NCBI GenBank assembly: GCA_902793195.1 | Contig: CADBCS010000004.1 | Location: 38,417 to 102,416 of the forward strand | Direction: 5' to 3' | Origin: an uncultured Coriobacteriaceae bacterium | GTDB taxonomy: Bacteria > Actinomycetota > Coriobacteriia > Coriobacteriales > Atopobiaceae | Length of the DNA stretch: 64,000 bases | Notes under the pieces: generated by a model | What the model saw: the letters and a program-made list of their open reading frames with translations, nothing else | What the model was told of the DNA's origin: nothing | Database searches by the model: none | Shown: piece after piece, positions 7,199 through 38,663 of the stretch | How the letters are laid out: every line of letters begins with the position of its first letter | Position numbering within the stretch: the stretch's first letter is position 1 | Made by a program: the position numbers and the translations under genes

Positions 7199-8977
7199 AT
7201 GAACGAAGGTACGGAAATGGTGGCACAAGAGATCGACGAAGCTTCGCTTAGAGTTCTGCTCGACAACATACCCGCCATCACCTTCTTCAAAGACGTTGCG
7301 ACCGGTAGATACCTAGCCTGCAATCGTATGTTCGCCAAGTTCGCTGGCAAGGATAGTCCCCAGGAGATAGTGGGGCTAACGGACCACGACGTCTTTGAGC
7401 GGGAGACGGCCGATCGGTTTGTGAGCGACGACAGGGTCGCGCTGTCCATGGACGAGCCCTACAGGCTCTTTGAGAATGTACGCGATTCGTCGGGCAACTT
7501 GCACCGGCTCCAGAGCTCCAAGGTCAAATTTGTGGATGACTTAGGTCGGCTGTGCGTCCTCGGCATGTCCGTCGACGCAACGGAGACGCTAAGAGCCAGG
7601 GAGGAGAACGAGCGGGCGCGGACCGCACACGAGGAGGCCATGAGTACGAGTGCCATGTACGAGAACATGGTCCATGCGCTCTCGGGGGACTACTTTAGCC
7701 TGTACTACGTAAACGTGGAGACGGATGACTACGTCGAATACCGATTGCGAACCGTGCGCGGCATGGTTGCGACGGAGAGGCGTGGCACCAGCTTCTTTGT
7801 GGAGGCCCGTAAGAACGCACCGCACATCATATACCGTGAGGACCTGAGTCGCTTTGTTGAGGTGATCGACAAGGAGAGGCTTCTTGCCAAGGTGCAGAAG
7901 CACGGTGCGTGCATCTGCCATTTCCGCCTTTTGATCGGTGGGGTCCCAACCTACGTGAGCATGAAGGCTACGCGCGTTCCCAAAGACGACGAGCACATTG
8001 TTATTGGCCTGAGCAACGTGGACGCCCAAGTGAGAGACCGCATAGCGGCAGAGCGCGCAGAAGAGGGCAGGAGGGCGTACCTGAGGCTCAAGGCCTTCGT
8101 TGGAAACCTGTTGGTGCTCTATTACGTGGACCCCACAACCTTCGAATACACGGAGTTCAGCACCACCACGAGCTTCGAGCACCTTGGCATAGCCAAGCAG
8201 GGATCCGACTTCTTTGAGTCCACGTACAGGAACAGCTTTGGCACGGTGCATCCCGAGGACCAGGAACTGTTCCATTCGCATGTTACCAAGGAGAACGTTC
8301 TTGCCGCAATTGAGCGAAACGGCTCGTTCTCGTTGGGCTATCGCCTGCTGAGCGACGGGCTTCCCACGTACGTGAGGCTGCAGGCGGTGATGGTCATGGA
8401 AGGCGATAAGCCCTTGCTCATCATCGGTCTTCTTGACGAGGACGCACAGGTAAAACAGATGCACGAGTACGAACGAAATCTCTTGGTTGCCAAAAAGCAG
8501 GCCGTCATCGATCCGCTCACGGGCGTAAAGAACAAGCATGCCTACGCAGAGTGGGAGGAGAGGATTGACGCCGCAATAGCCAAGGACGAGCAGGATCCGT
8601 TTGCGGTAGTGGTATGCGACATCAACGACCTCAAGGCGGTAAACGACCGGTATGGGCACAAGGAAGGTGACACCTGCATCAGGAGGGCCTGCGCAAGGAT
8701 TTGTAGTGTCTTTGCCCATAGCCCGGTGTTTAGGGTGGGCGGTGACGAGTTTGTGGTAATTCTCACCCTAGGTGACTACGAGCGCCGTACCGAGCTGGTA
8801 GACATGGTAGTTGCTGTGCCAACGGAAGAGCTGGAACACAAGGTGGGAGATACCATCGCCGCCGGTATGGCCGAGTTCCAAAAGGAACGGCACCCTTCGC
8901 TCCTGAGCGTCTTTGAGGAGGCCGACAAAGCCATGTACGCAAGAAAGCGGCTCATGAAGGCGACCGCCGCGAAGTGA
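7199..8977 (+). CDS. PAS-domain GGDEF protein (putative diguanylate cyclase)
   Basis: A soluble protein of up to 592 residues. A PAS domain occupies about residues 15-130 (LLDNIPAITFFKDVATGRYL). Two related sensor-like segments follow, each containing a LxLYYVxxxT pattern near 160 and 300. The C-terminal GGDEF domain begins at DPLTGVKNKHAY and has an intact VGGDEFVV near residue 513, so cyclic di-GMP synthesis is plausible. There is no RxxD inhibitory site in the usual place and no membrane helix. The start is uncertain: an ATG at 7217 has a better AAGG ribosome-binding site than the one at 7199. The doubled sensor segments resemble each other and may have arisen by duplication. Confidence 0.87.
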   Translation: MNEGTEMVAQEIDEASLRVLLDNIPAITFFKDVATGRYLACNRMFAKFAGKDSPQEIVGLTDHDVFERETADRFVSDDRVALSMDEPYRLFENVRDSSGNLHRLQSSKVKFVDDLGRLCVLGMSVDATETLRAREENERARTAHEEAMSTSAMYENMVHALSGDYFSLYYVNVETDDYVEYRLRTVRGMVATERRGTSFFVEARKNAPHIIYREDLSRFVEVIDKERLLAKVQKHGACICHFRLLIGGVPTYVSMKATRVPKDDEHIVIGLSNVDAQVRDRIAAERAEEGRRAYLRLKAFVGNLLVLYYVDPTTFEYTEFSTTTSFEHLGIAKQGSDFFESTYRNSFGTVHPEDQELFHSHVTKENVLAAIERNGSFSLGYRLLSDGLPTYVRLQAVMVMEGDKPLLIIGLLDEDAQVKQMHEYERNLLVAKKQAVIDPLTGVKNKHAYAEWEERIDAAIAKDEQDPFAVVVCDINDLKAVNDRYGHKEGDTCIRRACARICSVFAHSPVFRVGGDEFVVILTLGDYERRTELVDMVVAVPTEELEHKVGDTIAAGMAEFQKERHPSLLSVFEEADKAMYARKRLMKATAAK

Positions 8978-9077
8978 TCTGGCACGCCCACTGTCCGTCC
9001 AGAGATGGGTAGCTGTTCCTAAGCACAAATGAGCGGTATGCTAGGTTCACGGATTGGCATATCGAAAGGAGAACACC

Positions 9078-9359
9078 ATGGGCATTATGGACAAGGCGAA
9101 GGCGGCGTTCGACGCCAACCAGGACGGCACAGTGGAGGCCACCGAGGTAGCCAGCGCCGTAGCGGGCGCCGTAAAGGTCGCCGGTTCCGCAGCCGGCTCG
9201 GCGGTTGCCGGAGCAGCTGAGCAGGTAAAGAAGAACTTCGACATCGACGAGGATGGCAAGGTGTCCATGGAGGAGGTCCAACTGGTTGCCGAGGACGCGC
9301 GCGACAGGGCAGTCGGTGCGGTTGGTGGCTTCGTGGACAAGATCAAGGGCAACAAGTAG
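9078..9359 (+). CDS. EF-hand-like small protein
   Basis: A 93-residue protein with two 12-residue EF-hand loops: DANQDGTVEATE (residues 12-23) and DIDEDGKVSMEE (about 56-67). They are separated by an alanine/glycine-rich stretch (VAGSAAGSAVAGAAEQV) that may form an amphipathic helix. The loops carry acidic ligands at positions 1, 3, 5 and 12, so calcium binding is plausible. AAAGGAGA lies seven bases before the ATG at 9078; an upstream in-frame ATG at 9054 lacks such a site. There is no signal peptide, so it appears cytoplasmic. It lies 13 nt before the Pr6Pr-type membrane protein and is probably cotranscribed. Confidence 0.75.
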   Translation: MGIMDKAKAAFDANQDGTVEATEVASAVAGAVKVAGSAAGSAVAGAAEQVKKNFDIDEDGKVSMEEVQLVAEDARDRAVGAVGGFVDKIKGNK

Positions 9360-10348: not shown

Positions 10349-13300
10349 CTATCCGCTGCGACGCCGGCGCAGCACGCCAGCCACGGTAGACGCGCCGCCG
10401 GCTGCCACGAGGGCGGCAACCGCCCAGAGGCTCGTGGCATCACCCGTCTGCGCCGTGGCGATTCGCGACGCACCCGACGTGGTGGTCTTGGACGTTGGTG
10501 TCGTCGGCGTCGACGGCGTGTAGGTGTTGGTGCAGGTAACGGTGTGGGTCAGGCCGTCCTTGGACTTTACCGGTTTGCCCATGGTGGAGATGAGGCCACC
10601 CGTATCGGTCTCTGCAATCTGGTAGCCCAGCTCGTCCTTCTCGTTGAGCGGCAGACCCGTAGCCTTCTTGCTCTCGCCGTGCTTGAGCTTAAAGGTCGCG
10701 ACACCCTTCGTAAACTTCATGTCGCCATATGTGCCCGTAACGGTCTTGTCGTCCAGCGTGACCTTAAAGGCATACTCGCGGGTCTTGTCTTGCGAGCGCG
10801 AGCTCGAGACGGTCTTCTTTACAATGAGGGATGCAGGCTTTTCGGTGGTGTAGGTGTTGGTGACGTTCACCTGAGCGACCTGTCCCTTTGCCACGGGTGC
10901 CGATGCGGACTTGGTCGTGGCGGCACCCTCACCGACCACGTAGGTGGTGGCAAAGTTGTACTTCTTGAGGTTGTTGGTCTCGGTTACCGTGTAGGTCCCC
11001 ACGGGCAGCCCCTCAACCGTCCAAGACGGATCGGTCTCGCCTGTAGCGACCGCAAAGTTCGCAAGCGTGTTGGTGCGCACCGTCTTGCCGTCGGCGTCGG
11101 CTATCGTAAACACAATGTCGTTGAGCTCCTCGGCAGAAAGCGCCGCGAGGTCGAAGTCCGCAAAATGCTTGGTCACCCTAAGGCCGCCCACGTCAACGGT
11201 GTTGGTAAGGGTGGTAAGAAGCCCGGCCTCGTTCGTAACCTCCTCTGTAACGGCCTGGCCGTTGTTGGTATACGTCTTGCCGCTCAGCGACCAGCCATCC
11301 ACACTCTGCTCGGCCCACGCGTACGTGTAGGCGACACCGCTTTCGTCGACCTTGGGCAGTTGGGACACGTCGGCCGTCCAACTGTTGCCCGCGTTGAGCG
11401 TAACCTCCTTGTAGGCCTGACCGTTGCGGTTGAGCGTTACCTTGAGCTCGGGCGGCACGACGCTCTTGTCGCTGGCAATGCTGCTGTTCGCCTCGTCCCA
11501 AACCTTTGCAACGGAAGCATCAACGAACTCGCGGCTGTTGCTTACCGTGGCCGTGGTAACGGCATCGCGCGGTATCGTGCGGGCCTCGTCGGTTGTTACC
11601 GCCGTGGTGCCAACGGTGTACGAGACCGACGGCGTAAAGCTCTGCACCGGCGTGTAGCTTATGCCGGCCGGCACGTCTTCTGCGCGCGTCACCTCGGCAA
11701 CCTCGTAGCCAAGCCCCACGGGCAGCTCTACCGCGGACGCACGTTCGCCGCTCTTAAGCAGCACGTACGCAACGCCGTCTTGGAACTCGAGCGGCTTGTC
11801 GCCTTCCTGCTGCGTCGCAAGCGTCGTATCCATGTCCTCGGCAACGTCCGAGCGCGTCCAATCGGTGTACATCGTCACCTTAACGAGGAACTCCCTGGTC
11901 GCGTCATCGTCCACGGGATTCACCACGTTTTTGGTCACCACCAAGTCGCCGTGATAGATGCGCTCGTTGGTAAAGGTCACGCTCGTTGCGTCCTGGTCTT
12001 GCGAGGACGCGGTAATGGGACCGAACACCTGCCCGTTCGTGGGGTTGGTGAGGGTGAAGTTGTGCTGCTGCTTGGCGGTCATTTCCTCTGTGATCGTATA
12101 GTACAGGTCGGTTGGCAGGCCAGTCGCGCTTACGGACCATTGGTTGGCCTGGCTGAGCGTAACGTTGCTGGCAACGCCGTTGGCAAAGGTCACGTCGCCA
12201 TAAGTTCCGGTGAGCGCCTCGGGGGTGGTCGCCGTCGCATCGCTAAAGAGCCTAATGGTAAAGGCGAACTCCTCCGCGGCATCGACGCCGTAGTCGGAGA
12301 CCATGTTCTTTGCGAGCTTGAATCCTCCCAGCGTGCGCTTGTTGGTTATGGTGTCCGGCTTGCCTTCCTGATTTATGGTGATCGGCTTAATGTCCTTTGT
12401 CACAACGCCCGTCTGCTCAAAGCCGGTCGTGGTATCCTCGGTTACGGTATAGCCCACGTCGGTGGGCAGCCCCTCGATGGACGCGAACTCGCCATCCTTG
12501 AGCTTGACAGTGGCAGAGCCGTTGGTAAACACCAGGAGCTTGTCGGAGGGGCTCCATGGCGTGTAGGCAGCACGGGCGCCCGACGTGTTGATGCTGGTGT
12601 CCAAAAGACGCACGGTAAAGGTGAACTCGCGTCCGTTGTCAAACGAGGCCTCGGAGTTGACCTGCTTGCCAATGCGCAGCACGCCCCGCACGCGCTCGTT
12701 GGTAAAGGTCACGGCAGAGGGTGTGGTGCTATCGATAATGCCCCACACGCCTTCCTGCACAGGCGCGGTTGATCCACCCGCATCGTCGTCTGTGGGAGCC
12801 ACCGTATCGGTGCACAGGTGATCGTCATCCGGCGTCGCCTGGCTGCTCGTGCGTCCCGTAAGGGTGAATCCGGTGGCGCTGGCCTCGGTAACGGTGTAGT
12901 AGACGCCGTCGGGCAAGCTCGTGGCCGTTGCGCTGTTGCCGCCCGTAAGCTGCACGGTCGCCACGCCACCGGCAAACGTCATGTCGCCATAGACCCCGTC
13001 AACCTTGGCAGGCTGCGTGCGACCCTGGTCCGTGTACAGCTTGACCGTAAAGGTGAAGGCCTGATCCTTGTCGGCCGCGGCGGCGGACACCAGCTCCTTG
13101 CTTACGGTGAGATTGCCGCCCTCGCGCGTGTTGGTGCATTCGGCGTTCGACAAGGTCGTGGTGCTGATGGTGCCCGTGTTGCCCACCCACGTGTCGGTGA
13201 GGCCATTGTTGCCGGTTTCGGTAATGGTGTAGTTCACTCCGCGCGGCAGTCCGTTCATCTCGTTGTACAGGAGCGATCCCTTGTACTCCTCCACCGGGAC

Positions 13301-29893: not shown

Positions 29894-30913
29894 ATGGCGT
29901 ATGTGTTGGGTAGGGGGTCGGCGGTCGAGTGGCTTCGGCAAAACCGAAACGTGTCGTTGGTGCAGCATCCCTGGACGGTGCCCTATCCGTTGCTGGAGGG
30001 GAGCCGCACGCGGCTGGAGGCGGTGCTGCCGCACCTTGAGGGGCTCTCGGTACCCTACCAGCTCATCGTGTGGACGCGCGAGGACCGGCGCCGAACAGCG
30101 CTGGCCTGCAGCCACATGCTCGACTTACGCGACGGACACTACCCGGCCATTCACGTAACCGACGAGCTGTTCGTCTCGACACCTGAGTTCACCTTCCTGC
30201 AGATGGCAAGCGTGCTCGACGACGAGCACCTGCTCTTTTTGGGCCTCGAGCTGTGTGGACGCTATGGCATGCGCAACGGACGGGTGTTCATGAGAAGGCA
30301 GGCGTGCACGCGGCAGCAGCTGCTGGCGTTTGCCGAGTACGCCCGGCATGTGCACGGAAGAAAGCGCGCCTTGAAGGTGGCGCCAAACGTGCTTGAGGGG
30401 GCCGGGTCGCCCATGGAGGCGGCGCTGGCGCTCGTGTTGCACGCTCCGTGCGAGGAGGGCGGGCATGGTCTTGCGGCGCCGGAACTTAACCGTTCGCTTT
30501 CGGTCGTGGGGGCTGCCCGTCGCCTCTGGCCGGATGACCACATCACGCCGGACTTGCTGTGGGAAGACGCAAAGCTCGCGATCGAGTACGACAGCGATGA
30601 GCACCATACGGCCGGGCAGCGCATCGCAAACGACGCGCGTCGGCGAGACGTGCTCGTTGAGCTGGGATATCGCGTGGTTACGGTAACGACCGAGCACATG
30701 AGAAGCACCCGGGAGGTCGAGCGCATCGCGGGAATCGTGGCGCGTGCGGTCGGCGCGGACCTCGCGCCGCAGGACGAGGAGGCGCGAAAGGCGCGGGCGA
30801 GCCTCCTGGAGCGCATGCGTCGGATGGCGACCCATCCCGAGGAGCTGACGGCCCTGCCTCAGGCGCGGGATTCTCGCTCGTGGCGTCCACGACGCCCACC
30901 CGCGCGCCCGTAA
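29894..30913 (+). CDS. DUF559 / Vsr-fold endonuclease-like protein
   Basis: A 339-residue protein. The C-terminal part contains LLWEDAKLAIEYDSDEHH, followed by RRRDVLVELGYRVVTVT (residues about 218-260), the PD-(D/E)xK-type pattern of DUF559 / very-short-patch-repair-like nucleases. The first 190 residues are a separate helical/beta region with PYQLIVWT and HVTDELFVSTPEFTFLQMA, seen in AbiEi-like and related coriobacterial proteins. The active-site Asp/Glu residues look present, but activity is unproven. The gene is flanked on both sides by inverted units of family ii, which makes it look like a cassette between the activase and glycyl radical enzyme genes. Arginine-rich tail. Confidence 0.7.
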   Translation: MAYVLGRGSAVEWLRQNRNVSLVQHPWTVPYPLLEGSRTRLEAVLPHLEGLSVPYQLIVWTREDRRRTALACSHMLDLRDGHYPAIHVTDELFVSTPEFTFLQMASVLDDEHLLFLGLELCGRYGMRNGRVFMRRQACTRQQLLAFAEYARHVHGRKRALKVAPNVLEGAGSPMEAALALVLHAPCEEGGHGLAAPELNRSLSVVGAARRLWPDDHITPDLLWEDAKLAIEYDSDEHHTAGQRIANDARRRDVLVELGYRVVTVTTEHMRSTREVERIAGIVARAVGADLAPQDEEARKARASLLERMRRMATHPEELTALPQARDSRSWRPRRPPARP

Positions 30914-34507: not shown

Positions 34508-34597
34508 TACGATTTTGTGACAAGCTAGATCACTGCCGCGTACGATATAGCGCAAATATCGTACGCGGCAGTGACCCATTTTTACCACGAATCGTAC
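34508..34597 (+). terminator. 19-bp hairpin within a mirrored element, T-run on the plus side
   Basis: The core is a perfect 19-bp stem, TCACTGCCGCGTACGATAT / inverse, at 34530-34548 and 34556-34574, with a 7-nt loop, followed by CCCATTTTT. Outer GTACGAT (34508) and ATCGTAC (to 34597) extend the symmetry to about 90 bp. It lies between the aldolase gene and the convergent Nif11-leader peptide gene. Confidence 0.7.
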
Positions 34598-34630: not shown

Positions 34631-34837
34631 CTATCTCGTCCTGCCGTAACAACCCGCATCGGCGTCGCAGTAATAGGGCGAGTTGCACGAACTCCACACG
34701 CCACCACCGGCCACGCCTTCCAGCTCCTCTTCGGAAAGCTGGTATCCCTCGCTCCGCGCAAACTCGAGCAGTTCCTCGGGGGTCGTGCAATCCTTCGCCC
34801 TTTGCATCTGCTCCTCAGACAGTTCGTTAAAATCCAT
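34631..34837 (-). CDS. Nif11-leader RiPP precursor peptide
   Basis: A 68-residue peptide with a Nif11-like leader: CTTPEELLEFARSEGYQ, then LSEEELEGVAGG, the usual leader end with a double-glycine cleavage site at residues 44-45. The remaining core of about 23 residues starts GVWSSCNSPYYC and has cysteines at 51, 57 and 63, an exact six-residue spacing, plus several Tyr and Ser. This is the architecture of a ribosomally made, post-translationally modified peptide that is exported with leader removal. GAGGAGGGGGC precedes the ATG. No LanM, cyclodehydratase, radical-SAM maturase or C39-peptidase ABC exporter is adjacent; the only close partner is the divergent HipA-like kinase. Modification and export genes may lie elsewhere. 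Confidence 0.8.
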   Translation of the reverse strand: MDFNELSEEQMQRAKDCTTPEELLEFARSEGYQLSEEELEGVAGGGVWSSCNSPYYCDADAGCYGRTR

Positions 34838-34948
34838 GGGATGCCCCCTCCTCGCTTATTGCCCATTACGCATATACCTATAGTATGTTCTACAAGACGC
34901 CTCATCTCAACATGCGTCTACACAAATACATGCGAGGGATGCCAATCC
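34838..34948. promoter_or_regulatory. Divergent promoter region of the peptide and kinase genes
   Basis: A 111-bp AT-rich gap with ATATACCTATAGTATGT at its centre, suitable for back-to-back -10 regions. It separates the peptide gene (minus) from the kinase gene (plus). Confidence 0.4.
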
Positions 34949-36136
34949 ATGCGCTACACGCTTATGAACCAAGGACGCGAGGTGCTTGACTTCGCGATGG
35001 ATGCCAACTCCGGGCTTCCCACAGACATACGACCCCGTGAGGGTATGGGGTGGGCGCCCATGCAGTTTCCCACGGACGGGCAAGACCTCGTGCCGTCACT
35101 CGACCGATTCCTGCGGCAACGTGCCATCTGCGTCGATCGAGAGGACCTTGCGAGCATCATGCGCGCGTGTGGAACCCGGCGCGCCGTTGACCTGGCGCTC
35201 CAGTCGGGTGGCTTCTCGCTCTCGGACCAATACTGGTACAGGCGTGAGGGCACCGACCAAACGTGGGAGGGATCGAACTTCTTTGACAACGAGTGGGACC
35301 CCTCGTTTGGCGAGGCCATACTCAAAAAGGACTACGACGCCCTCGCCCACGCGTCGGCACGCACCCCCGACACCACCCTTGGCGGCTTTTGTCGCAAGGC
35401 CTGGATCCAAACCGAGCGGGGCCCTCGGCTCCACAAGGCTACGTGCGCCGACGATGCGAACATCCTTTGCGAGGCCTTGGTCTCTCGCATGCTCGACCGT
35501 CTTGTTGGAATGCGCGGCCACGTCCCCTACCAGCCCGCGACGTTTTGTGGGGAGCTCTACTCCACCTCCCCCGTCATGCTGGGCAAAGACGAGGAGCTGG
35601 TGCGAGGCATCGAGCTTTTGGGCAGGGAGGGCGTGGCCCTCGAACGGCTCGACGCGGCAACGGGCATGCGCAACTTCGATGAGCTTATGGGTATCTATCT
35701 GCGCGCGCTTCAAAAGCACGGCGTGCCCGAACCCCGGCAGGCCGTGGCCAAAGTGTTCGTTACCGCAACGCTCACGCTCGACTTCGACACACATCCCTCC
35801 AACTTTGGCTTTATCCGCAACCTCAAGACGCTCGAGCTGCGTGAGGCGCCGCTCTTCGACCACGGACGTGGATTCACCTACATGAGAGACAAGTTCGCGC
35901 TCATCAAGAGGGAACCTAGGGTCGCCGAGCTTTTGCTCGGACTCCATTTTTGCCGGCTCGACCCCGCGTGGGACTACTCGTGGTACGACCCACATGCGCT
36001 CGACGACTTTGAGGACGAGATTCTGGAGACGCTATCTGCCATCGACGCGCTGCCCAAGGGGTATGCGGAGCTGATGGTCGCCCTGTTCAAAAAGCAGCGC
36101 AGCTACGTGAATCGCATCGCGGAGCGCTCGCGCTAG
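34949..36136 (+). CDS. HipA/CtkA-like protein kinase-fold protein
   Basis: A 395-residue protein with a HipA-fold kinase core. The catalytic loop reads DFDTHPSNFGFIRN (about residues 276-289), with the D-x-H-x-x-NFG arrangement of HipA-type kinases, and DHGRGF (about 303) supplies the metal-binding aspartate. An ATP-binding KATCADDANILCEALVSRML segment lies near 165-185. There is no HipB antitoxin gene next to it and no DNA-binding domain, unlike hipBA operons. HipA relatives phosphorylate Ser/Thr on proteins. It is divergent from the Nif11-leader peptide gene; whether it acts on the peptide is unknown. The start at 34949 follows GCGAGGGATG. Confidence 0.75.
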   Translation: MRYTLMNQGREVLDFAMDANSGLPTDIRPREGMGWAPMQFPTDGQDLVPSLDRFLRQRAICVDREDLASIMRACGTRRAVDLALQSGGFSLSDQYWYRREGTDQTWEGSNFFDNEWDPSFGEAILKKDYDALAHASARTPDTTLGGFCRKAWIQTERGPRLHKATCADDANILCEALVSRMLDRLVGMRGHVPYQPATFCGELYSTSPVMLGKDEELVRGIELLGREGVALERLDAATGMRNFDELMGIYLRALQKHGVPEPRQAVAKVFVTATLTLDFDTHPSNFGFIRNLKTLELREAPLFDHGRGFTYMRDKFALIKREPRVAELLLGLHFCRLDPAWDYSWYDPHALDDFEDEILETLSAIDALPKGYAELMVALFKKQRSYVNRIAERSR

Positions 36137-38376
36137 TCCCTCGTGACGGCGCCCATGCCCTTGAGCTGCATCTTGCGCTCGTACATGAGGTTGTCCGCAC
36201 GCTGAAAGACCTCGTGGAAGGATTCGTCCACCTCGGGGTCGAAATCCGACAGACCCAGAGAGATGACCACTTTGTCCTTGCCGATGTTACCCTCGATCTC
36301 GGTGTTGATGTCGCGCATGATATCGTGCCGATCCTCGAAGTCGCGCCCCTGCAGGAGCACCACGAACTCGTCGCCGCCAACGCGATAGACCGGGCTGTGC
36401 TTGAAGTACTCGCACAGCATCTTACAGGCGGAACGAATGTACTCGTCACCTGCCTTGTGGCCCAATGTGTCGTTGATCTTCTTGAGGCCGTTGACGTCAC
36501 AGACGATCACGCCGAACTCGTCAACGTCGCCGTCCACGATATGCGTCTCCATGTCGCCTTCCTTAACGGCAAAGGCATGCTTGCTCTTGACGCCGGTGAG
36601 CGGGTCTGTGAAGGCAACGGTGTGGGCCTCGTCGCGCTCCTCGATGGCCTTCTTCTCCCATTCGCCCGTCGTGCGATAGTTCACGAACATCACGATGGCC
36701 GCGAGCCCAAACACACCGAAGATAATGTAGGCACTGGTGTTGTCGGCGGCGTGGAGCCGCACGCCTATGGTTTCCAAGAACTCATCCGTGCTCATGGCCT
36801 GGTGCGTGGCATCCGCCGTCCCGTTGATGTAGCTGCCTATGTCTGCGACAATAACGTTCTCGCTTGCCTCGTTTATGCGCTCGGCCAGAGTCGTGGACAT
36901 GAGGACTATAAACGCCAGCATGGCAACCCACACGATGATGGCCTTGCCAAAGCTCCTTGCATGGTCCCTTCGTATGACCCAGTTGAAGAAGAACAGCCCG
37001 ATGACCGACCACCCTATCATGAGCACGTAGGTCTCCGTCTCGATGGTATGGTCGGCAAAAAAGCCCGGCAGGAGGAGGAACACCAAGAACGCGACGAGTA
37101 TGAACAGGCAGATTCCGCTGATGAGGCGGTTCCTCCTGACCCCCTCCTGACCCGAGACCTTGAAGACCGCCACGGACGCAAAGCCATAGACGATGGTCGC
37201 GCCAATGGTGGTGGTGTCCACGATCCAGCCGATGGTCGTCCTGCCAAGGAAGGGTATGGGCAGCGAGACGACGACGGCGAGGAGTATTGCGTTTACCGGA
37301 ATCCGCTTGTCACTGAGCTTGGAGAACCGCTCGGGCAGCACGCCGTCGTGGGCCACGGCGTAGCACAGGCGGCTCACGGCGCGCAACATGCCAATGAGAC
37401 TGGAGAGCACGAGTGCCAAAAGCGAGGCCATGAGGATGTAGACGCCTGCGTCACCGAGGTAGTGATAGGCGGCATAGAAGGCGGGAAGACCCTCGATCCC
37501 TTCGAACTCGTCCAGGCGACCGATGTAGTCCAGCCAGCTGGAGCAACCCTCCGGATAGGCGGTAATGCTCAGCAGAATGATAAAGATGTACAGCGCGGTC
37601 ACAACGGCAACGGCGGACACGAGGACGCGGAACATGTACTTGTGCTCGAACTTGTACTCCATGGCCGAGTGCGACACGCTCTCGAATCCAATGAACGCCC
37701 AGGGCGAGAGGAAGGCGATGCGCAACACCTGTCGGAAGGCTCCCTTGTCCGGAACGAAGGCTGGCCTCATCGTCAAGCCCGTTCCTCGATGGCCCAACAT
37801 GGCGAGCAAGGTGACAACGGTGATGCCTGCAATAAACAGCAGCACCATTACCACCATCGTCTTTGCGGTCGCCTCCTTGCTCTTTATGCACAGCAGGGCA
37901 ACGAGCGCGATGACCGCCAGCGTTATGAGGGTCTCGCCCAAGTAGACCTCGTAGCCAAATATGGTGTAGAGGTAGCCGACCTTAAACACGCCGCGGAGGA
38001 AGTAGCGGGCGAACAGCGGAACGCTGGTTGCGTTTGCCCAGAAGATGGAGATGTACGTGAGGAACAGGTACCAAGCCACCAAAAACGCACGGTCGTAGCC
38101 AAAGACGTTCTTTATGTAGTTGTACAGTCCACCAATGCCGGGAAAGCGGTTAGCCAAGAAGTGGTAGTGGCTGGACACCATGAGCATCATGATGAACCCG
38201 GCCAGCAGGCCCAGAATGGAACCCGCCGGTCCCGCCTGGGACAGGTAGGACTTGCTGGTGACCACAAGCGAACCCCAACCAATGGCAGAGCCAATGGACA
38301 GGGCCCAAACCGCCAACCGCGAGAGATAAGGCTGCGGGCCCGTCGTGGCTTTGCTGGCAGATGACGGTTCACTCAT
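36133..38376 (-). CDS. Amino-acid permease fused to a GGDEF domain
   Basis: A 747-residue fusion. Residues about 25-480 form an APC-superfamily permease with 12 or so helices; the N-terminal LSIGSAIGWGSLV matches the G-rich first helix of amino-acid transporters. A further helix pair encloses an extracytoplasmic loop of about 60 residues, then a cytoplasmic GGDEF domain (DPLTGVKSKHAF to the end) with intact YRVGGDEFVVLL near 665. Thus a transporter, or transporter-derived sensor, is coupled to a putative diguanylate cyclase. The start at 38376 follows GGGGGGTGGG. It overlaps the kinase gene end by four bases, convergently. Whether the permease half still transports is unknown. Confidence 0.88.
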   Translation of the reverse strand: MSEPSSASKATTGPQPYLSRLAVWALSIGSAIGWGSLVVTSKSYLSQAGPAGSILGLLAGFIMMLMVSSHYHFLANRFPGIGGLYNYIKNVFGYDRAFLVAWYLFLTYISIFWANATSVPLFARYFLRGVFKVGYLYTIFGYEVYLGETLITLAVIALVALLCIKSKEATAKTMVVMVLLFIAGITVVTLLAMLGHRGTGLTMRPAFVPDKGAFRQVLRIAFLSPWAFIGFESVSHSAMEYKFEHKYMFRVLVSAVAVVTALYIFIILLSITAYPEGCSSWLDYIGRLDEFEGIEGLPAFYAAYHYLGDAGVYILMASLLALVLSSLIGMLRAVSRLCYAVAHDGVLPERFSKLSDKRIPVNAILLAVVVSLPIPFLGRTTIGWIVDTTTIGATIVYGFASVAVFKVSGQEGVRRNRLISGICLFILVAFLVFLLLPGFFADHTIETETYVLMIGWSVIGLFFFNWVIRRDHARSFGKAIIVWVAMLAFIVLMSTTLAERINEASENVIVADIGSYINGTADATHQAMSTDEFLETIGVRLHAADNTSAYIIFGVFGLAAIVMFVNYRTTGEWEKKAIEERDEAHTVAFTDPLTGVKSKHAFAVKEGDMETHIVDGDVDEFGVIVCDVNGLKKINDTLGHKAGDEYIRSACKMLCEYFKHSPVYRVGGDEFVVLLQGRDFEDRHDIMRDINTEIEGNIGKDKVVISLGLSDFDPEVDESFHEVFQRADNLMYERKMQLKGMGAVTRD

Positions 38377-38663
38377 GGAACCCACCCCCCGAATCGAGCT
38401 TCCTCTGTACGTACGGTCATAAAGTTTAAGCATATAGTAGCAGCACTTGGGGTGTCGTTCGTTCACGTATTCGCTAACAGTAATAGTTTGGCGGGCACGC
38501 GTCTTTGCGCCCTTGGAATGCACGTGAGCGATTGGTCTGCAGTGCCGAGCCAGGCGACATTGGCCGATTTGTCCGCGCACGCGCGCCGTTTCCACCATGC
38601 GAGGGAGCCGTCATTAGTACAATGGACTACATGAGTCCGTGCATGTGTACGAAAGGAAGGACT

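Follow-up and report, generated by a model that had tools for sequence, protein, structure and literature searches.

The window analysed here, a stretch of 64,000 nucleotides, comes from the genome (3.04 Mb in 64 contigs) of an uncultured Coriobacteriia species whose genus is otherwise represented in this work by ruminant-gut MAGs. It carries a short peptide gene and a kinase gene arranged back-to-back, with the following features.

34530..34574, no strand assigned: terminator-like palindrome downstream of the peptide gene, with a 19-bp stem and then a T run
34631..34837, minus strand: Nif11-leader precursor peptide, 68 amino acids (from the ORF, Pfam and a local Nif11 HMM)
34838..34948, no strand assigned: divergent intergenic region of 111 bp, containing both ribosome-binding-like motifs
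34949..36136, plus strand: HipA/CtkA-fold kinase, 395 amino acids, intact (from the ORF, a profile, an AF2 model and Foldseek)

The peptide (MDFNELSEEQMQRAKDCTTPEELLEFARSEGYQLSEEELEGVAGGGVWSSCNSPYYCDADAGCYGRTR) has the Nif11 leader, the VAGG motif and the cysteines at positions 51, 57 and 63 that had been claimed for it in the first-pass annotation. Its leader comprises residues 1 to 45, up to the GG (VAGG at residues 42 to 45), with an additional cysteine at residue 17, and its 23-residue core contains the three cysteines and one tryptophan. The peptide scored 27.9 bits against Pfam Nif11 (PF07862; gathering score, 23.8; E = 2.8e-6) and 84.7 bits against the local Nif11 HMM; against NCBIfam TIGR03798 it reached 23.0 bits, under the cut-off of 32.3. 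It thus shows the marks of a Nif11 precursor, namely, a domain above the Pfam curated score and a GG with a short core. The exact six-residue spacing of the core cysteines was not repeated in the related peptides that we inspected, the related three-cysteine cores being spaced otherwise, and we dropped it as a family signature. Within the window, no maturase or exporter gene adjoins the peptide, as had been annotated, and we located candidates elsewhere in the genome.

By consensus match only, ribosome-binding-like motifs precede both start codons (GAGGAGG at the peptide ATG and GAGGGA at the kinase ATG), and a weak promoter-like match at 34910-34882 on the minus strand faces the peptide gene. 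The neighbors of the kinase are the Nif11 peptide gene, a transaldolase/FSA gene and a permease-GGDEF gene. The last of these (36136-38598, minus strand) is a single frame of 821 amino acids consisting of an amino-acid permease and a C-terminal GGDEF domain. The segment 28777-33513 encodes a PFL-like glycyl radical enzyme, the radical SAM enzyme that activates it and then the transaldolase/FSA, and a 339-amino-acid protein encoded at 29894-30913 (plus strand) has weak, sub-threshold matches to MTES_1575/DUF559 endonuclease-like families.

No curated Pfam or NCBIfam family matched the kinase (the Pfam HipA_C match was sub-threshold, with E = 0.15), so that structure and profiles were required for its identification. 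A 43-row profile of its relatives matched CtkA in the PDB with E = 1.9e-6 and matched HipT/HipA weakly. The AF2 model (pLDDT, 92.9; pTM, 0.91) found HipA (best E = 9e-9) and CtkA (best E = 9e-7) in Foldseek searches. ORFs, profile and structure model therefore all bear out the proposal that a 395-amino-acid HipA/CtkA-fold kinase lies back-to-back with the peptide gene, 111 bp away. The catalytic set is intact (K163, D280-x4-N285 and D304); in the subfamily, K163, N285 and D304 are present in 47 of 47 aligned kinases and D280 is present in 45 of 47. Because these residues are conserved, it is plausible that the window kinase is active. It has its fold and catalytic motif in common with CtkA of Helicobacter pylori and the HipA toxins but is 11 to 16% identical to them by structure alignment, and it differs from them in having no HipB partner and in lying in a RiPP gene context.

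The first-pass annotation had suggested that conserved co-occurrence of the two genes would support a functional link. A scan of GTDB contigs yielded 49 loci of the kinase subfamily, in Coriobacteriia, Bacilli/Erysipelotrichaceae and Ruminococcus. Among loci with at least 600 bp readable on both sides, a Nif11 peptide lay no more than 600 bp from the kinase at 14 of 21 Coriobacteriia loci and 12 of 19 Bacillota loci, counts that come from loci related to one another and are not independent events. Conserved pairing was thus found in two phyla. Nif11 peptides were this close to 0 of the 21 HipA-like paralogs that fall outside the subfamily and to 3 of 75 further genes at these loci. On the kinase tree, the Nif11-neighbor label was clustered (0 of 500 shuffles were as low). 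We also searched 224 genomes from a single Bacilli family, some of them shared with the contig scan, with the whole-kinase profile. Of the 28 subfamily members recovered, 15 had a Nif11 peptide no more than 600 bp away, and 19 had a radical SAM maturase no more than 1.5 kb away. Gene calls at the related loci came from a simple purpose-written caller, and many of the contigs are short MAG pieces. The pairing of kinase and Nif11 peptide is not due to chance.

The closest homologs of the window kinase (L101, 63% identity; L102, 58% identity) lack an adjacent Nif11 peptide in the available flanking sequence, although their genomes have eight to nine Nif11 hits. In genome G014, a kinase with 44% identity to that of the window has a Nif11 peptide 240 bp upstream; that pair (L061/L103) is co-directional, whereas the window pair is divergent. 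Within the genus, the kinases nearest in sequence are directly preceded by a Nif11 peptide at every readable locus except one. At locus L064, the reading frame of the Nif11 peptide is broken.

In Bacilli, the usual gene order is response regulator, kinase, Nif11 peptide, radical SAM/SPASM protein, small HlyD-like protein, NHLM peptidase-exporter, second NHLM ABC protein, STAS protein and SpoIIE phosphatase, and some operons also have an RsbW-like ATPase. At several Bacilli loci (L126, L132 and L134), kinase and maturase are direct neighbors that no peptide gene separates. A maturase elsewhere that always accompanies the peptide had been named as evidence against the proposed system, and in Bacilli this was partly what we found, in that a radical SAM maturase lies in the kinase operons. 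In peptide sets hand-picked from the Nif11 hits, the leaders of kinase-linked Bacilli peptides were 71% identical, compared with 60% for other nearby Nif11 peptides (0 of 2000 permutations), and a CxxC core was found in 0 of 11 kinase-linked Bacilli peptides versus 17 of 17 other local Nif11 peptides. This leader specificity, read from sequence, points to contact between kinase and precursor.

The rumen Coriobacteriia loci have a different composition, with two proteins of 332 to 342 amino acids followed by a peptide, whose core mostly ends in CMNETW, and the kinase. The 332- to 342-amino-acid proteins had no Pfam or NCBIfam match. A structure model of one of them (pLDDT, 81.5) matched the ABBA-type aromatic prenyltransferases CymD, DMATS1 and AmbP1, and we model these proteins as ABBA-type prenyltransferase-like. 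Genes of this family (for example, L113:5396-7419, L114:5531-7554 and, in G000, C4:24240-25244, C20:31223-32188 and C2:119899-120876) are often in tandem and lie beside Nif11 peptides, LanM genes or radical SAM genes. At locus L107, a three-cysteine Nif11 peptide (NFWTCSAQCDNDRCPSWSRP) has a radical SAM maturase on one side and a kinase on the other, and NHLM exporters are encoded upstream; within the peptide set, the layout of the core of this peptide is the most like that of the window core. Two subfamily kinases (8016-9194 and 11031-12209) flank the maturase and peptide of L107. Kinase-linked cores as a whole are varied, including three-cysteine, CMNETW, charged RKIDS-like and CxxC types (the last in L105 and L109), and we saw by eye no Ser/Thr position specific to kinase-linked peptides.

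The window genome contains several of these parts at separate places. It has two NHLM exporters, one on contig C4, ~62 kb from the pair, and one on C14. C29 encodes a radical SAM maturase that has no Nif11 peptide near it and shares 63% identity with its L107 counterpart, the one between kinase and Nif11 peptide. C4 also carries a Nif11 peptide and a prenyltransferase-like gene ~48 kb from the pair, and C6 carries two Nif11 peptides; these other Nif11 peptides of the genome are without a kinase. Since parts that are united in relatives are scattered in the window genome, it is plausible, judging from the gene content, that maturase and exporter are supplied in trans.

Taken together, these results make it probable that the kinase is part of a peptide natural-product pathway. 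The explanation that we favor, to which we give just short of an even chance, is that the window kinase is a member of a dispersed Nif11 RiPP pathway, most likely phosphorylating the precursor. The window pair would be one part of this pathway. The Nif11 leader of the precursor would be recognized by the pathway enzymes, and an NHLM peptidase-exporter working in trans would cleave the precursor at the GG. The HipA/CtkA-fold kinase, predicted to be catalytically competent, would be dedicated to Nif11 precursors and would most likely move phosphate to a Ser or Thr of the precursor, either as a last tailoring step or to license export or other modification of the precursor. We infer the substrate, the modified residue and the in-trans enzymes of the window genome from what was observed: both genes, the fold and catalytic residues of the kinase, the pairing in two phyla, the kinase-specific peptide type of the Bacilli and the presence of pathway enzymes in the same operons. 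Against this explanation stand the absence of an adjacent peptide at L101 and L102, the diversity of the cores, the lack of a specific Ser/Thr and the peptide-less L126, L132 and L134.

These same points bear on an alternative that we consider unlikely, although it deserves to be taken seriously, in which the kinase belongs to the RiPP locus but is regulatory or self-protective and acts either on a regulator or on whatever the peptide targets in the producer, with the peptide or its leader maybe serving as a switching signal. Such a role has room because the cores are diverse, which suits a kinase indifferent to core chemistry, because no Ser/Thr is kinase specific and because at some Bacilli loci no peptide gene separates kinase and maturase. 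Regulation is also built into the Bacilli operons, which start with a response regulator and finish with STAS and SpoIIE-phosphatase genes, some having the RsbW-like ATPase as well. However, such regulators are confined to the Bacilli loci and one NHLM system of the window genome, with none beside the window pair, and the leader specificity in Bacilli suggests that the kinase contacts the precursor.

It is more doubtful still that the window genes are unlinked neighbors, the subfamily being RiPP-linked in other genomes but the window kinase being a relict or having another role and the peptide being handled by other enzymes. The peptide-less nearest homologs, the divergent layout, unlike that of the G014 pair, and the other Nif11 peptides of the genome that lack a kinase would all fit this idea, but the Nif11 peptide upstream of the G014 kinase, the background rate of Nif11 neighbors (3 of 75 genes) and the intact window kinase with its catalytic residues argue against it. 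We give little credence to the idea that the HipA fold here transfers AMP, closes a ring or binds the precursor instead of phosphorylating it; RosX provides a precedent as a lanthipeptide cyclase with a kinase fold, but it lacks the kinase catalytic residues (PMC12291118), whereas the Lys, Asp, Asn and Asp are retained in the window kinase subfamily. Finally, although its nearest fold matches are HipA toxins, we reject as highly improbable a HipBA-type toxin-antitoxin kinase lying beside the peptide by chance, as no HipB-like HTH gene adjoins the window kinase and the HipA-like paralogs with a short HTH-like neighbor (L091 and L094, judged by sequence) sit outside the subfamily clade.

Stand-alone RiPP-precursor kinases are already known from a few types, the HPr-kinase-like enzymes of lasso peptides and the APH-like enzymes of class V lanthipeptides. 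Among the former, BsfK phosphorylates its precursor ahead of leader removal, and BsfK, ThcoK and their relatives have a G-G-x-G-K-S type motif (PMC10368454). As in the window, a dedicated kinase gene lies beside a RiPP precursor in these systems, but we saw no lasso genes near the window pair, and we rejected a phosphorylated lasso peptide because the fold of the window kinase is HipA/CtkA and not the HPr-kinase-like P-loop fold. The class V LanK proteins CaoK and LxmK are aminoglycoside-phosphotransferase (APH)-like and work with a HopA1-type lyase (PMC9486802). They too are stand-alone kinases acting on a precursor, as we propose here, but their fold differs, and we rejected a class V system because a HopA1-like lyase (PF17914) was found in 0 of 16 genomes, the window genome included. 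A class II system was rejected for the window genome, in which the LanM dehydratase (PF13575) is absent; it is present in 8 of 16 genomes of the genus. MppC prenylates a lanthipeptide with a Nif11-type leader (PMC12715784), a combination of Nif11 precursor and prenyltransferase like that suggested by the prenyltransferase-like genes beside related pairs; the available text of that report mentions no kinase, and the prenyltransferase-like proteins described here differ in having no Pfam or NCBIfam match. Our literature search found no paper joining Nif11, HipA and RiPP and none joining a HipA-like kinase with a RiPP.

Among the nearest known counterparts are the Nif11/NHLM-exported RiPP cassettes (PF07862; TIGR03798, TIGR03796 and TIGR03797), with which the window has in common a Nif11 leader ending in GG. 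In relatives, a radical SAM/SPASM maturase and an NHLM peptidase-exporter are encoded next to the peptide, as in these cassettes. What differs is the HipA/CtkA-fold kinase as a recurrent member and, in the window, the absence of an adjacent maturase or exporter. Thus, of the new peptide system first proposed, the conserved pairing stands, and the remainder is better described as the addition of a new accessory to RiPP cassettes of the Nif11/NHLM type. The kinase is not the lone maturase, because it is usually accompanied by a radical SAM maturase and NHLM exporter in Bacilli or by ABBA-type prenyltransferases in Coriobacteriia. More broadly, and somewhat more tentatively than for the window itself, we propose that this HipA/CtkA-fold family consists of dedicated Nif11 precursor kinases in ruminant-gut Actinomycetota and Bacillota, mixed with radical SAM maturases, ABBA-fold prenyltransferases and NHLM exporters to give phosphorylated, perhaps prenylated, peptides. 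If true, this would add a lineage of RiPP kinases, with a third fold and across two phyla, would give a role to a HipA-like branch otherwise filed with toxins and would make testable why many gut-bacterial Nif11 peptides have no adjoining maturase.

Other short peptides were seen in the course of this work. A 62-amino-acid peptide at L104:7729-7917, whose non-Nif11 leader ends in EEVAGG, immediately precedes a subfamily kinase. Short non-Nif11 VTGG peptides, at L196:5351-5557 and 10491-10637 (G000:C4), flank the NHLM exporter of the window genome. Finally, 38 of 132 distinct Nif11 peptides, at loci including L034, L124, L128 and L131, have CxxC...CxxC cores that are zinc-ribbon-like rather than typical of a RiPP core.
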